In this document: positions 37,159 to 42,574 of the stretch, in pieces | Layout: each line of letters opens with the position of its first letter | How positions within the stretch are numbered: position 1 is the stretch's first letter | Origin: Chryseobacterium nakagawai | GTDB taxonomy: Bacteria > Bacteroidota > Bacteroidia > Flavobacteriales > Weeksellaceae | NCBI RefSeq assembly: GCF_900637665.1 | Contig: NZ_LR134386.1 | Span: forward strand, 5,262,501-5,326,500 | Direction of reading: 5' to 3' | Length of the DNA: 64,000 nucleotides | Notes under the pieces: generated by a model | What the model was told of the DNA's origin: nothing | Databases searched by the model: none | Seen by the model: the letters and a program-made list of their open reading frames with translations, nothing else | Made by a program: the position numbers and the translations under genes

Positions 37159-37713
37159 ATGATTGCAGAGAAGATAATTTTAGGTATTGATCCCGGAACA
37201 ACTATTATGGGATTTGGTCTTATTTCCGTTAAAAAGGGTAAAATGGAGATGGTTTCTATTCATGAACTGATCCTGAAAAAATATCCGAACCATGAGACTA
37301 AACTAAAATATATTTTCGAAAAGACATTAGCCCTCATTGATGAATATCATCCTGATGAAGTAGCCCTGGAAGCTCCTTTCTTTGGAAAAAACGTACAAAG
37401 TATGTTGAAATTGGGACGTGCACAGGGCGTCGCCATGGCGGCCAGCTTATACCGTAACGTTCCGATTACTGAATATTCTCCCAAGAAGATTAAAATGGCT
37501 ATCACCGGAAATGGAAATGCCAGCAAAGAACAGGTAGCAGGAATGCTTCAAAATCTACTTAATCTAAAGGAATTCCCTACCAAATATTTAGATGCATCTG
37601 ATGGCCTTGCTGTTGCTGTATGTCATCATTTTAATTCCGGAACAATAACGGATACCAAGTCCTATTCTGGCTGGGATAGTTTTTTGAAGCAGAATCCGGA
37701 TAGGTTAAAGTAA
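37159..37713 (+). CDS. ruvC: Holliday junction resolvase RuvC
   Basis: A 184-residue endonuclease that resolves Holliday junctions with RuvAB. The four acidic catalytic residues are visible: D11 (LGIDPGT), E71 (VALEAPFF), D145 and D148 (DASDGLAVAVCHH), with the family spacing. The KKIKMAITGNGNASKEQV segment is also characteristic. ruvA and ruvB are not next to it, which is common in Bacteroidota. Transcribed alone; more than 500 bases without a gene follow. Confidence 0.95.
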   Translation: MIAEKIILGIDPGTTIMGFGLISVKKGKMEMVSIHELILKKYPNHETKLKYIFEKTLALIDEYHPDEVALEAPFFGKNVQSMLKLGRAQGVAMAASLYRNVPITEYSPKKIKMAITGNGNASKEQVAGMLQNLLNLKEFPTKYLDASDGLAVAVCHHFNSGTITDTKSYSGWDSFLKQNPDRLK

Positions 37714-38192
37714 ATATTTTTGAATGGTTCCAAAGAAATATTTATAGGATAAAACTTGTATCTTTTTATAGTATACTGCTTGAGTATGAGATTCAAAAAT
37801 GCCTTTCTTCTTATTAAGTCTGATGAAAAATGCTTCACTGTTTACAGGACAGCCACTAAACTTTGCAACATAAAGGTAAAAACATTCTTCATCCTACTTA
37901 AAAAATCCTCCAACCGGATTCTTATTATCAAACCATAAGTCTTGGGAACAAGTAATAATTCCTGTATATTATCTACATACAATAAATCCTTTTAGTTCTT
38001 CCTCATTCGTAATTAGGTAAAATACCAGTCAGATAAACATTATCTAAACATCCCTGGTCCTGAGATTTTCAGTACAAATTTTAGCATAGGGAATTCAAAC
38101 TAATCATTTTTAAATAATTAAAACACAATTTTAGTAAGTTATAGAAGGTCAAAGATTAAATTACTTGGTAAAACATAATACTATCTTTTACA
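37714..38192. other. Long intergenic stretch, no supported gene
   Basis: About 480 bases between ruvC and the DUF4407 gene. A 60-codon frame at 37756-37938 starts at a poor codon and reads as random AT-rich sequence. No tRNA, hairpin with T-run, or repeat was recognised. It may hold control sequence for the DUF4407 unit. Confidence 0.45.
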
Positions 38193-38219
38193 TTGGTATG
38201 ATTTTTAATACTACATTTG
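38193..38219 (+). promoter_or_regulatory. Promoter of the DUF4407 / AAA-M41 unit
   Basis: TTG at 38193-38195 and TACATTTG at 38212-38219, 16 bases apart. The -7 element contains the TTG at 38217 that opens the frame, so translation must start later, at ATG 38235. Confidence 0.6.
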
Positions 38220-38234
38220 TATAAATTTTCTAAG

Positions 38235-39305
38235 ATGAAAACAAACCAACAAACTATAAATCAACCGAATCATACAATAAATTGGTTCCAGAAGTTTCTG
38301 ATGGTGTGTTCCGGCGGGAACATCCATATTTTAAGAAAGACCCCAAGTGAATGGAATAAGTTTTCCGGTATTGGGGGAGTTGTACTTTTCACAGCAGTAT
38401 TTGCTACTTTATCTGCTGGATATGCCATGTATACAGTATTTGATGATCTATGGACATCCATAGGATTTGGAATTCTGTGGGGATTAATGATTTTTAACCT
38501 TGACCGATATATTGTTTCTTCCATCAAAAAAACCGGAACATGGTGGAATCAGATTCTGATGTCTATCCCCCGTTTAATCCTCGCCACATTCCTGGGGATT
38601 ATTATTTCAAAACCTTTAGAGCTTAAAATTTTTGAAAAGGAGGTAAATAAACAATTGAACACAATTATTCAAAGAAATAAAAAACAACTTCAGGGTGAAA
38701 TGACCGGAAGAATTCTTCAGCAAAGTGGTCCTTTTGAAACGGAGAAAAAACAGATCGCGGAAAAAGCGGCTTTATATCAACAATCATACGATTCTGCATC
38801 TGTAGAACTTGAAAAAGAAATTCTGGGAAAAGAGTCTGGTTTAACCAGTGGAAAGGAAGGATATGGACCTAATGCCAAACGTAAACAGCAATTGAAGGAG
38901 CAACGCAGACAGGATCTTGAAAATTATCAGAAACAGGTAGCGCCTAGACTGGAGTATCTGGATAAAGAAATATCAAAAGTATATACCAACCTTGAAACTG
39001 AAAGAAAGTCTACAGAAACCTTTGAAGATAAATTTAATGGGTTTGCAGCCCGACTTCAGGCTTTGGATGAATTAGGTAAAAATTCTGCAATCATAGGATT
39101 GGCAGCCACCTTTATCATGGGACTTTTCATTTGTCTTGAAATTTCTCCGGTTCTGGTAAAACTGATCTCTCATGTAGGACCTTACGATTATCTTTTAGAA
39201 AAAACAGAAAACGATTTCAGACTCTATTCTAAGGAAAAAATTGAAAAGGGAAATGCTCTAACCGATTTCAGAGTTGAGGATTTCAAGGATAATCTAAAAA
39301 AATAA
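38235..39305 (+). CDS. DUF4407 membrane protein with long coiled coil
   Basis: A 356-residue protein; the start is the ATG at 38235 because the upstream TTG lies inside the promoter. Helices: about 46-68 (GIGGVVLFTAVFATLSAGYAM), 72-90 (LWTSIGFGILWGLMIFNLDRY, with the NLDRY signature of DUF4407), 107-125 (ILMSIPRLILATFLGIII). Then about 150 residues of charged, glutamine-rich coiled coil (130-285), a last helix (288-311, IIGLAATFIMGLFICLEISPV) and a short cytoplasmic tail. Family function is unknown. Its stop and the next ATG share one base (TAATG), tying it to the AAA-M41 protease. Confidence 0.85.
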   Translation: MKTNQQTINQPNHTINWFQKFLMVCSGGNIHILRKTPSEWNKFSGIGGVVLFTAVFATLSAGYAMYTVFDDLWTSIGFGILWGLMIFNLDRYIVSSIKKTGTWWNQILMSIPRLILATFLGIIISKPLELKIFEKEVNKQLNTIIQRNKKQLQGEMTGRILQQSGPFETEKKQIAEKAALYQQSYDSASVELEKEILGKESGLTSGKEGYGPNAKRKQQLKEQRRQDLENYQKQVAPRLEYLDKEISKVYTNLETERKSTETFEDKFNGFAARLQALDELGKNSAIIGLAATFIMGLFICLEISPVLVKLISHVGPYDYLLEKTENDFRLYSKEKIEKGNALTDFRVEDFKDNLKK

Positions 39306-41182
39306 TGTATTTTTCATCCATGATTATTGATAAAGAAGAAATCCGGAAGAAAAAGAAAAAGCTGGACGATTGTAAAGCTTATCTGAAAAAAGAATTTATC
39401 GGTATAGATAAAATCATCGATGATATCATGGAATATATTCAGATCTGGTATCTGATGCCTGAAATCCTAACCCGCCCCGTGGTAATCAATTTATGGGGAA
39501 TGACCGGAGTAGGAAAAACAGACCTGGTGAGAAAGATGGTCCGTTTTCTTGATTTTCAAAATCGTTTTGTGGAAATTGAATTAAGCAATACGGATGAAAC
39601 ATCCTGGAGCAAAAGTGTTTCAGATATCTTACAAAGTAATGGACTAAGTGATGAAAAGCCAAGCATCGCTCTTTTTGATGAGATCCAGCGTTTCAATACT
39701 ATAGATCCGGATGGCATTCCGGTTCCACAAACGAAGTTCACGGATTTCTGGGAACTTTTAAGTGATGGACGTTTAAGTAAAAGAGAGAAGGAAGATCTTG
39801 AACATTACTTATTCTCCTATCTATTCCGCAAAAAAGAAAATGACAGACGAAAGCTGAGCGGAGAAACAGAACTGGATGAAAATCCGTATCTGAACCTGTG
39901 GGATGCAAAGGAGTTAAAAAAATACCTCAGCATGGATGATGATGTCATGAGTATCATTGATATGAAAGAGGAAGACATGATTAAACTGATCCGCAAAAAA
40001 CAGAAAGAAAAGAAGATCTATGAGCCTGTGGATTACAGCAAAATGCTTATTATTATCAGTGGAAACCTGGATGAAGCTTTTCAGATGTCAAAAGAGACCA
40101 GTGAAGCAGATGTGGATGCCAATATTTACCATGCATTCACCAAAAAAATAACTATGGTTGACATAAAAAATGCATTAGCTAGAAAATTCCGCCCTGAACA
40201 GGTAGCCAGATTTGGGAATATTCACCTAATCTATTTTTCATTAAAAACCGAGGACTTTCATAACCTGATTCAACGGGAAATCAATAATCTGAAACATAAA
40301 ACAAAAACGAAGTTCGGAGTGTCTTTAAAAATAAATAAAGCCATCAATGAACTGATCTACAGAAACGGAGTTTTTCCGGTTCAGGGAGTACGTCCTGTAT
40401 TCAGCAGTGTAGTGGATATTCTGGATACTAATCTCAGTAAATTTCTCTTTGAAGCCATTATCCATGAAGATAAAAATATTGAAATTGATTATCTTCAGGA
40501 TAAAAAGATGATTACCGCAAAGGTTGGTATCAGAACTATTGAAATTCCTTATATGGGAAGAATCGACAGCATAAGACAAGCCAACCAACAGGATGCTGTG
40601 GCCAATATCAGTGTTCATGAATGCGGACATGCCGTTACTTATATGCTATATACAGGTTTTGCCCCGTTACAGCTTAAAAGTAAGGTAGCAAGCAGTTATG
40701 CAGCAGGTTTTACTTTTCCACACCAGATCCATGACACAAAAGAAAGTCTTCTGAACAAAATCAAAATCTATCTTGCTGGAGGAATTGCCGAAGAAATTAT
40801 CTTCGGAAACCAGCATGCAAGCATCGGCAGAAGTCATGACAGAGACCAGGCAACAAGCCTTGCCATTGATTTTATCAGAAAATATGGTTTTGAGGAAAAG
40901 TATCAGGCGGCATATAATCTTGAAGCTTATCCTCACCGTATGCAGCAGCATATCACTGATGAAAGAATAGAAACACTGATGCAGGAATTAGTACAAAAAA
41001 CAAGAGAAGACCTGATCTTACATCTTGATCTCCTTAAAAATATGAGTATAATCCTTAGTAAAAAAGGAAGCATGTCTCCAAAAGAAATTTATGATATAGC
41101 AAGCAAACATCAATTAGAGGTCAGTATCAAAGAAGAAGGACATTTGCACATTATCAATTATCATGATTTACTGAATTCCTAG
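39305..41182 (+). CDS. Clp-type AAA ATPase fused to an FtsH-type (M41) zinc peptidase
   Basis: A 625-residue putative ATP-dependent protease without membrane helices. AAA part: Walker A GMTGVGKT (65-72), Walker B IALFDE (121-126), a charged insert (about 150-240), sensor region IISGNLD, arginine-finger-like PEQVARFG (297-304) and a C-terminal lid with GVRP (361-364) of the ClpA/ClpB D2 kind rather than the FtsH kind. Peptidase part from about 430: HECGH (438-442, HExxH zinc site), AGGIAEEIIFG and D512 in SIGRSHD, the third ligand in FtsH. Start 39305 is chosen for coupling; ATG 39320 is an alternative. The DUF4407 partner may supply the missing membrane anchor. Confidence 0.85.
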   Translation: MYFSSMIIDKEEIRKKKKKLDDCKAYLKKEFIGIDKIIDDIMEYIQIWYLMPEILTRPVVINLWGMTGVGKTDLVRKMVRFLDFQNRFVEIELSNTDETSWSKSVSDILQSNGLSDEKPSIALFDEIQRFNTIDPDGIPVPQTKFTDFWELLSDGRLSKREKEDLEHYLFSYLFRKKENDRRKLSGETELDENPYLNLWDAKELKKYLSMDDDVMSIIDMKEEDMIKLIRKKQKEKKIYEPVDYSKMLIIISGNLDEAFQMSKETSEADVDANIYHAFTKKITMVDIKNALARKFRPEQVARFGNIHLIYFSLKTEDFHNLIQREINNLKHKTKTKFGVSLKINKAINELIYRNGVFPVQGVRPVFSSVVDILDTNLSKFLFEAIIHEDKNIEIDYLQDKKMITAKVGIRTIEIPYMGRIDSIRQANQQDAVANISVHECGHAVTYMLYTGFAPLQLKSKVASSYAAGFTFPHQIHDTKESLLNKIKIYLAGGIAEEIIFGNQHASIGRSHDRDQATSLAIDFIRKYGFEEKYQAAYNLEAYPHRMQQHITDERIETLMQELVQKTREDLILHLDLLKNMSIILSKKGSMSPKEIYDIASKHQLEVSIKEEGHLHIINYHDLLNS

Positions 41183-41223: not shown

Positions 41224-41260
41224 AACCCTTTTAGTTCAATCTGAAAGGGTTTTTCTTTTT
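41224..41260 (+). terminator. Terminator after the AAA-M41 gene
   Basis: Stem AACCCTTT/AAAGGGTT with a 12-base loop and a T-rich tail. Confidence 0.8.
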
Positions 41261-41288: not shown

Positions 41289-41882
41289 ATGAAAAATTTA
41301 CTTTTCACATGGATACTGCTTATCTGCGGTGTATTTTCCCCTGCATTAAAAGCTCAAGGATCAGAACCTTTTCTAGGACAAATTGCATTTGTACCCTATA
41401 ATTTTGCCCCGAATGGATGGGCCGAATGCAATGGACAAACGATGTCAATTGCGCAAAACCAAGCTCTTTTTTCTCTCCTGGGAACTACTTACGGAGGAGA
41501 TGGAATTACAACCTTCGCATTGCCTGATATGAGAGGAAGAGTACTTGTTCATAACGGACAGGCTCCCGGAGGACCTACAAATTATACTATTGGGCAAACC
41601 GGAGGCGTGGAAAGTGTAACCCTAACTGTTGCACAAATGCCGGCTCACAACCATACTGTAAATGCTGTAACAGCTGAAGGAAATCAAAATATTCCCACAG
41701 GAAGTCTTCCTGCCAACACGAAGATACTGGATAAAGAATATTCAGATACAACAACAGATACTACGATGAAAAGCACAATGCTAAACAATACAGGAGGCAA
41801 TCAGGCTCACGAAAACAGGCAGCCATTTCTCACATTAAAATGCATTATTGCACTCAACGGTATTTTTCCTTCACACAATTAA
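41289..41882 (+). CDS. Secreted phage-tail-collar-domain protein
   Basis: A 197-residue protein with a signal peptide (LLFTWILLICGVFSPALKAQ) before a tail-fibre collar domain: PFLGQIAFVPYNFAPNGWAECNGQTMSI, LFSLLGTTYGGDG, TFALPDMRGRVLVH and VAQMPAHNHTVNAV. This is the microcystin-dependent-protein type arrangement; in phages the domain sits at the tail-fibre base. Here no other phage gene is near, and the signal peptide implies export. Its role is unknown; it may be a surface trimer. The next gene, a T9SS type A protein, follows after 5 bases, so they are co-transcribed. Confidence 0.85.
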   Translation: MKNLLFTWILLICGVFSPALKAQGSEPFLGQIAFVPYNFAPNGWAECNGQTMSIAQNQALFSLLGTTYGGDGITTFALPDMRGRVLVHNGQAPGGPTNYTIGQTGGVESVTLTVAQMPAHNHTVNAVTAEGNQNIPTGSLPANTKILDKEYSDTTTDTTMKSTMLNNTGGNQAHENRQPFLTLKCIIALNGIFPSHN

Positions 41883-41887
41883 CTATC

Positions 41888-42574
41888 ATGAAATACCTTT
41901 ACTTATTATGTCTGGTATTTTCAAGCTCAGCTTCAGCCCAGACGATTACCTTTAATGGGTGTCATAATCTGTTTGACGATCAGAATTTCATTTTCAACAA
42001 AACAGGAGTAGATGCATTTAACAAAAACATCTATATGACAACCCCTATTAATGATCAGCAACCTTGTGGTGGATTGGGAAACTGTGAATTTAAAATTCAA
42101 TGGAACAATGCGCTTACGAGATGGGAATTCCTTGGTGATGAAGGGAACGGAACTTTTACCACACCTTATTTAATTTATTATAATTCTGCAGGTAATAATT
42201 CTCTTCCTATCCCCCCTGGCAATAATGTAGGAACATGGATTGAAAATACGGTAATCACTACTTCTCTATGTGGAGGAAACCTTACTCCTAATAATTCTGT
42301 AATGACTGGAGATATACAAGGGCCTACACTAGGAACACTGGAAATGGTAAAAAACAAGATCCAAATTTTCCCTAATCCGGTTTCTGACTTTATCCGTATT
42401 TCAGGAATTAATGATGGGCAGATGGTTCAGATTTACAATATTGACGGACGTCTTGTAAAATCTGAAATGTTTGATTCTAACGTTGATGTTTCACAACTTA
42501 GTTCAGGGGTTTATGTATTAAAAATTACGACACGGGGATTCCAGTCTCACGAATTTAAATTCGTGAAAAAATAA
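41888..42574 (+). CDS. Secreted T9SS type A sorted protein
   Basis: A 228-residue protein starting at ATG 41888 (the frame is open further upstream into the previous gene, but this ATG begins a clean signal peptide, YLYLLCLVFSSSASAQ). The central domain (about 20-150) is an unrecognised cysteine-containing beta-rich module, ITFNGCHNLF ... CGGLGNCEFKIQW ... WEFLGDEGNG. The C-terminal 75 residues (IQIFPNPVSDFIRI ... GVYVLKITTRG ... FKFVKK) are the T9SS type A sorting signal. Likely a cell-surface or secreted partner of the collar-domain protein. Confidence 0.8.
   Translation: MKYLYLLCLVFSSSASAQTITFNGCHNLFDDQNFIFNKTGVDAFNKNIYMTTPINDQQPCGGLGNCEFKIQWNNALTRWEFLGDEGNGTFTTPYLIYYNSAGNNSLPIPPGNNVGTWIENTVITTSLCGGNLTPNNSVMTGDIQGPTLGTLEMVKNKIQIFPNPVSDFIRISGINDGQMVQIYNIDGRLVKSEMFDSNVDVSQLSSGVYVLKITTRGFQSHEFKFVKK

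Follow-up and report, generated by a model that had tools for sequence, protein, structure and literature searches.

A Clp-D2-type AAA+ motor fused to an M41 peptidase: a predicted soluble protease family common to bacteria and large phage-like contigs

To our knowledge, all AAA+ proteases with an M41 peptidase domain are driven by an FtsH-type motor and sit in membranes. The FtsH review PMC9020784 gives the same layout. Here we analysed a stretch of 64,000 nucleotides (nt) from Chryseobacterium nakagawai (contig NZ_LR134386.1, positions 5,262,501 to 5,326,500, forward strand; the window), part of a genome assembled as a single contig of 5.60 Mb, in which a gene for a DUF4407 membrane protein is followed by a gene for a protease that we call AAA-M41. 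Like FtsH, this protein has the AAA-then-M41 order and a zinc site of HExxH plus Asp, and the M41 profile scores 81.9 bits on E. coli FtsH; unlike FtsH, it is without transmembrane helices and its AAA half is not FtsH-type. With the D2 modules of HSP100 proteins (ClpC, ClpB, ClpA and Skd3) it shares the AAA fold, a DGRL element, the GxRP sensor-2 motif and a D2-small domain, but it has a single AAA module and no GYVG pore motif, holds 87 extra residues between Walker B and sensor 1 compared with ClpB, and carries a fused peptidase instead of a separate ClpP. A literature search by title and abstract opening, which covered subscription journals thinly, found no published account of a Clp-D2/M41 fusion. 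Our best reading is that AAA-M41 represents a new subtype of AAA+ protease that large phages and bacteria have exchanged. We put at roughly 60% the probability that the window protein works on its own as a soluble zinc protease driven by ATP, within a family common to bacteria and phage-like contigs, and that DUF4407 is its neighbour in the locus.

An earlier note on the window had proposed a split membrane protease, in which an M41 peptidase joined to a Clp-type AAA domain is coupled to DUF4407 as anchor or substrate adaptor. Both genes lie where the note placed them, and the upstream product is a PF14362 protein with four hydrophobic segments:

38235..39305, + strand, DUF4407 membrane protein, 356 amino acids (aa); PF14362, E = 4.5e-91
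39305..41182, + strand, protease open reading frame (ORF), 625 aa from the non-conserved ATG at 39305
39320..41182, + strand, Clp-D2-type AAA+/M41 protease, 620 aa from the conserved ATG
39332..40534, + strand, HSP100 D2-type AAA+ module, residues ~10-410, by profile, fold and tree
within the AAA+ module, by analogy: Walker A 65-72; Walker B DE 125-126; sensor-1 N254; Arg finger R302; sensor-2 R363
39773..40030, + strand, family insert between Walker B and sensor 1, residues ~157-242; helical, lower model confidence
40589..41104, + strand, peptidase M41 domain, residues ~429-600, by Pfam match
40616-40630, + strand, zinc site HECGH 438-442 in the M41 domain
40838-40840, + strand, third ligand D512 in the M41 domain

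The proposed fusion held up, and the motifs that the note named are present, with HECGH and D512 at the residues it gave. Peptidase_M41 matched residues 434-595 above the Pfam cut-off (E = 4.8e-14). AAA_2 (26.1 bits; cut-off 27) and ClpB_D2-small (20.5 bits; cut-off 21.9; E = 0.00049) fell just under theirs, and at E <= 0.001 they were found in 50 and 48 (PF10431), respectively, of 61 aligned relatives. With 1,919 of 7,997 candidate proteins reaching E <= 0.001, the Clp/M41 combination is far beyond chance. The claim that the chain has no membrane helix was also borne out: its highest 19-residue hydropathy mean is 1.16, so that the level of a membrane helix is reached nowhere, and the highest value in each of 87 aligned cellular proteins is at most 1.67. 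A canonical FtsH and several Clp-like proteins are encoded elsewhere in the same genome, and the AAA-M41 gene is therefore an addition to them. The one-base overlap of the two genes (TAATG) is present in the window as the note said, but it is not conserved: among 30 Chryseobacterium loci including the window, the codon at the place equivalent to 39305 is ATG in 8, GTG in 5 and a non-start codon in 17. A second ATG is kept 14 nt past the DUF4407 stop in 29 of these loci and 13 nt past it in the other; because this ATG is kept and the overlapping one is not, the true protease start is probably 39320.

Next, we compared the AAA half with both candidate lineages. By profile, fold and tree it resembles Clp D2 and not FtsH, as the note had supposed from local motifs; profile comparison did not recover an FtsH-type ATPase (-0.8/-1.2 bits), and a clade with FtsH was rejected in the AAA tree (approximately unbiased test, p-AU 0.018). 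A branch with support 95/92 united AAA-M41 with five Clp D2 modules and an unclassified AAA protein; the AAA-M41 family and D2 as one clade were neither recovered nor rejected (p-AU 0.286). The unclassified protein (L137; 426 aa, G000:C1:4127266-4127952) is encoded in the same genome and forms a long branch flagged by the tree program. Could the protein be a paralogue of FtsH stripped of its membrane helices, with an AAA domain that has merely converged on Clp features? Some public entries are named FtsH, and FtsH ranks first by E-value in Foldseek, with both domains aligning in order; FtsH is not among the best 50 rows of the VIA-align fold search, which we do not count as evidence of absence. 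Profile, fold and tree of the AAA half, together with the DGRL element and the ClpB_D2-small domain, weigh so heavily against such a paralogue that we ruled it out as highly improbable.

Both active sites are conserved. In the 87 aligned cellular proteins, which include the window protein and some near-identical rows, K71, D125, E126, N254, R302, R363, H438, E439 and H442 are invariant (87/87), and position 512 is Asp in all 84 ungapped rows. All 50 relatives on viral contigs keep N254, R302, R363, H438, E439, H442 and D512. Of these, 48 also have K71, the other 2 being gapped there, and 48 have E126, with one Asp and one gap in the rest. Within Chryseobacterium, the median ratio of non-synonymous to synonymous substitution rates (dN/dS; 56 pairs) is 0.029 for the protease, 0.020 for DUF4407 and 0.021 for ruvC, which, with dS saturated, indicates strong purifying selection and nothing finer. 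Position 101 is aromatic in 85 of the 87 cellular proteins, and Walker B and sensor 1 stand 128 residues apart, compared with 41 in ClpB D2. The lack of the usual Clp pore motif means that function may be altered and would suit an unfoldase with a regulatory role whose M41 domain is inactive or structural, like plant FtsHi; however, 87 cellular and 50 viral-contig members have the full set of zinc ligands and the catalytic Glu, which makes this very unlikely.

The family extends to large phage-like contigs. IMG/VR searches yielded 36 and 53 loci, 14 of which (L266-L279) were without a full family match, and 50 non-identical proteins remained (loci L192-L265), two of them without the Walker A region. 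Of the 50, 45 lie on contigs longer than 40 kb, the largest of 548 kb; one of the other contigs is just 4.6 kb. The surroundings look phage-like: the median ORF is 147 aa in the viral loci, with 86% of ORFs on one strand, compared with 256 aa and 57% in the cellular loci. Among the 48 viral loci scanned, 13 carry tRNAs, several in arrays. PHROG scans, covering 94 of 142 and 100 of 122 listed neighbour proteins, gave matches that include thymidylate synthase, DNA polymerase, clamp loader, dCMP deaminase, NAD-dependent ligase and homing endonucleases. Huge phages are known to carry suppressor tRNAs, and tRNAs with stop-codon anticodons were found in four viral loci (tta in L226, which also has a tmRNA; cta in L208, L209 and L258), hinting at stop-codon recoding there. 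The jumbo phage MIJ3, described in the relevant part of PMC6892783 as related to PA5oct, likewise encodes an M41 protease, but its FtsH has N-terminal hydrophobic segments and an FtsH-like AAA sequence.

To place the window protein within the family, we built a quick tree of 66 rows, which required at least three changes between viral and cellular rows, and a careful tree (LG+G4) of 54 rows, from which 12 had been left out as near-duplicates or long branches, including the bacterial L166. The clade tests were set after the quick tree had been seen. In the careful, unrooted tree, viral rows come between the window's clade (9 rows, support 100/100) and a distant bacterial clade (6 rows, 91/96); support is partly weak along the branches that lead from the window's clade to its nearest viral rows. 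A single clade of all 15 cellular rows was rejected (p-AU 0.0002), as was one of the 39 viral rows (p-AU 2.4e-5). The trees thus point to at least two exchanges of the AAA-M41 family between phages and bacteria. Sequence diversity in our sample is greater on the large phage-like contigs than in bacteria, and from this breadth the transfers would have run from phages to bacteria.

We read eight loci of the distant bacterial members (in G199, G339, G367, G813, G962, G857, G770 and G863), six of which fall within or beside the distant clade; L284, labelled L166 in the trees, sits separately on a long branch, and L285 is not in the trees. In six of the eight, a gene for a WYL-domain regulator is adjacent to the protease gene or one gene away, and a further member (G014) has a restriction-modification pair behind its protease:

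L158:10088-10987, WYL regulator beside AAA-M41 protease
L159:8940-9848, WYL regulator beside AAA-M41 protease
L160:1720-2661, WYL regulator beside AAA-M41 protease
L281:3784-4803, WYL regulator beside AAA-M41 protease
L282:3546-4433, WYL regulator beside AAA-M41 protease
L284:3489-4328, WYL regulator beside AAA-M41 protease
L161:9185-11307, GmrSD/HNH-type restriction gene and EcoRI-type methylase behind ruvC-protease in G014

WYL proteins are known to control defence systems, and these WYL-linked loci form a candidate defence module. The family might accordingly be thought to act as an infection-controlled defence and counter-defence protease, with bacterial copies that would protect against phages and copies in phages that would counter the defences of the host. 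Beyond the WYL genes, this idea draws on restriction- or defence-type genes near four of the eight loci, the others having been partly scanned (PDDEXK_4 of the PD-(D/E)XK type at L158, GmrSD at L160, McrBC at L282, and GIY-YIG with AAA_5 at L284), on the type II restriction-modification pair beside the ruvC-protease pair of G014, and on a patchy spread (5 of 395 genomes of the phylum at E <= 1e-20). On the other side, no WYL gene was seen in the ~4.4 kb upstream of the protease in L285, where the protease is cut by the contig end, or in the mere 386 bases upstream in L283; the WYL profile matched nothing in the viral loci or the window's clade; and that clade shares no defence neighbour. As an account of the whole family, we consider a defence role unlikely.

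We then turned to the proposed partnership with DUF4407. All 173 genomes of the genus encode DUF4407 and 49 encode the protease. DUF4407 lies directly upstream of the protease in all 29 fetched Chryseobacterium loci, at a gap of -1 to 14 nt, and beside it in none of 51 loci from other genera, seven of which have less than 600 bases upstream. These 80 loci came from a scan with two close-clade patterns, which kept 80 of 94 relatives and under-sampled cellular diversity. The DUF4407 profile found two DUF4407 proteins of other genera at 257.8 and 617.6 bits, and the absence beside the protease is therefore not a plain failure of sensitivity. In G014, for example, the protease follows ruvC after 4 nt and there is no DUF4407 match. 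Of 50 carrier genomes outside the genus, 16 have DUF4407 above the cut-off and 19 have it at E <= 0.001 (locus L052 was left out as the same strain as L048). Among carriers titled Bacteroidota it is present in 15 of 36, compared with 121 of 395 in the phylum sample, an excess that is at most mild. The upstream gene is an ordinary member of a family common in Bacteroidota; adjacency to AAA-M41 was seen in Chryseobacterium only. The role of anchor or adaptor that the earlier note gave to DUF4407 was not supported by this co-occurrence and adjacency check: relatives of the protease are mostly unlinked to it. We dropped DUF4407 as a conserved partner and regard it as a neighbour in the locus, not a needed subunit.

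A lineage-specific form of the split protease, in which DUF4407 would serve within Chryseobacterium as the inner-membrane anchor of the soluble AAA-M41 or hand substrates over to it, would account for the constant adjacency, for the correlation between the gene distances of protease and DUF4407 (r 0.88, 16 loci) and for five of 356 DUF4407 positions (11, 175, 176, 178 and 235) at which frequencies in 36 carriers depart strongly from those in 14 non-carriers, a comparison uncorrected for descent. However, ruvC-protease distances also correlate (r 0.84), and inheritance as a single locus explains the adjacency; 124 of the 173 genus genomes have DUF4407 without a detected protease, and protease relatives exist without DUF4407. 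Each DUF4407 segment is about as similar across the two groups as within them (N-terminus 0.935 across, 0.962 and 0.930 within; C-tail 0.927 across, 0.942 and 0.928 within). Long helices lie between the third and fourth hydrophobic segments, and hydropathy together with the positive-inside rule suggests three membrane helices before the coil and one after it, with the coil in the periplasm and hence predicted to lie away from a cytosolic protease. The AlphaFold2 model of DUF4407 is all helical at low confidence (predicted local distance difference test score 71.5), and its fold had no match in the PDB at E <= 0.001. Taken with these points, a split protease restricted to Chryseobacterium seems improbable.

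Several observations weigh against a soluble protease family shared with phages. The family tree is unrooted, and within Chryseobacterium the two genes are never seen apart in carriers, being adjacent by coordinates in 48 of 49. The Clp pore motif G[FYW]xG is missing in all 134 members measured (of 141), so that threading is not assured, and position 101 is aromatic in only 11 of the 50 viral members and gapped in 18. The separation from FtsH is strong yet not absolute, as the AAA profile gives 9.7 bits on the classical FtsH of phage MIJ3, compared with 249.7-437.3 bits for seven viral AAA-M41 members. The viral contigs are themselves IMG/VR predictions: no capsid or terminase was found among the PHROG families considered near the viral members, the sole portal-family match is a NUDIX protein, and transposases are also present. 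With four query proteins, no full-length copy was found in 50,697 named phage records; the plasmid and named-phage searches gave partial matches only, mostly to M41.

We nevertheless favour the stand-alone soluble protease and propose that six copies would probably assemble into a ring in the cytosol, in which the HSP100 D2-type motor would unfold substrates and pass them on to a chamber formed by the M41 domains, an arrangement like that of FtsH except that the membrane anchor is missing. Host, phage or defence proteins are plausible substrates in view of the phage and WYL contexts. The family would have passed between phages and bacteria at least twice; in Chryseobacterium, the protease gene lies behind the core gene DUF4407, probably using its promoter and terminator, and was seemingly lost more than once. 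A bolder version, which we hold tentatively and at less than even odds, is that these proteins form an undescribed HSP100 D2-M41 class that is standard in large phages, entered bacteria on two or more occasions, sometimes serves as a WYL-controlled anti-phage or stress module, and grips substrates without an aromatic pore loop. A soluble M41 protease driven by a Clp-type motor shows that modules for motor and peptidase have been swapped, and offers a natural compact chimera for studying the match between motor and peptidase ring and the working of a Clp motor that lacks the GYVG loop. Given its occurrence on large phage-like genomes, phages of this kind seem to carry an ATP-dependent protease with them, while the WYL-linked loci of bacteria offer a candidate defence module that can be put directly to the test.

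The surroundings of the two genes in Chryseobacterium comprise the following features, the flanking genes being profile matches that also appear in loci of the genus:

37159..37713, + strand, ruvC, upstream flank
38163..38234, + strand, DUF4407 leader/promoter region, 72 nt, strongly conserved
41224..41259, + strand, intrinsic-terminator-like hairpin 3' of the protease, read from the sequence
41289..41882, + strand, collar-domain protein, downstream flank

Among 14 fetched loci without the protease, seven show the order ruvC, DUF4407, collar gene within a 4-kb stretch, the collar gene lies directly behind DUF4407 in nine, and a similar terminator-like hairpin directly behind DUF4407 was seen in all nine of the 14 that were inspected. 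Seven of the 14 have a short remnant followed by the element TAGAGAAA, which in the window overlaps the protease stop codon, and in L111 and L115 the remnant looks like the beginning of the protease gene. The element and these two remnants suggest that the protease was deleted from some Chryseobacterium loci. A presence/absence tree of 50 of the best-scoring loci requires at least three changes and does not tell gain from loss. In G679 the protease is broken by stops and DUF4407 is matched in two pieces; stops inside the protease match also occur in G565 (one) and G611 (two).

A conserved neighbour for the window's clade was sought and set aside, as neighbour clusters stay within related hosts. 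Pfam and PADLOC scans covered 137 of 145 listed neighbours plus DUF4407, with the 25 commonest families considered and locus L046 missing owing to ORF picking. The clusters include one of nine loci, probably of a DUF2911 gene (seven members by Pfam), a GTPase with HflX-type domains in seven (six by Pfam), an acyl-transferase in five and SPFH in four. No PADLOC family matched more than one of the 138 scanned proteins, and single restriction-type genes do occur near members of the clade. SPFH proteins are known partners of FtsH; in L062, L063, L065 and L068, all Bacteroidota and two titled Saprospiraceae, the gene immediately upstream of the protease encodes an SPFH (band 7) protein.

Last, DUF4407 appears as a table entry in the parts of PMC9603813, PMC10719396 and PMC10551460 that mention it. 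The final 69-85 nt of its leader can be aligned in 22 of 29 other loci of the genus, where identity is 90-100%, and in the remaining seven the alignment runs over a longer 125-145 nt at 82-87%; no second site was found in the genome. The leader contains a TAnnTTTG-like box (tacatttg, 38212-38219), which may belong to the promoter, and the conserved stretch 38163-38234 exceeds what a promoter needs. Downstream of the operon, 41289-42574 of the window holds the collar-domain protein and the next gene.

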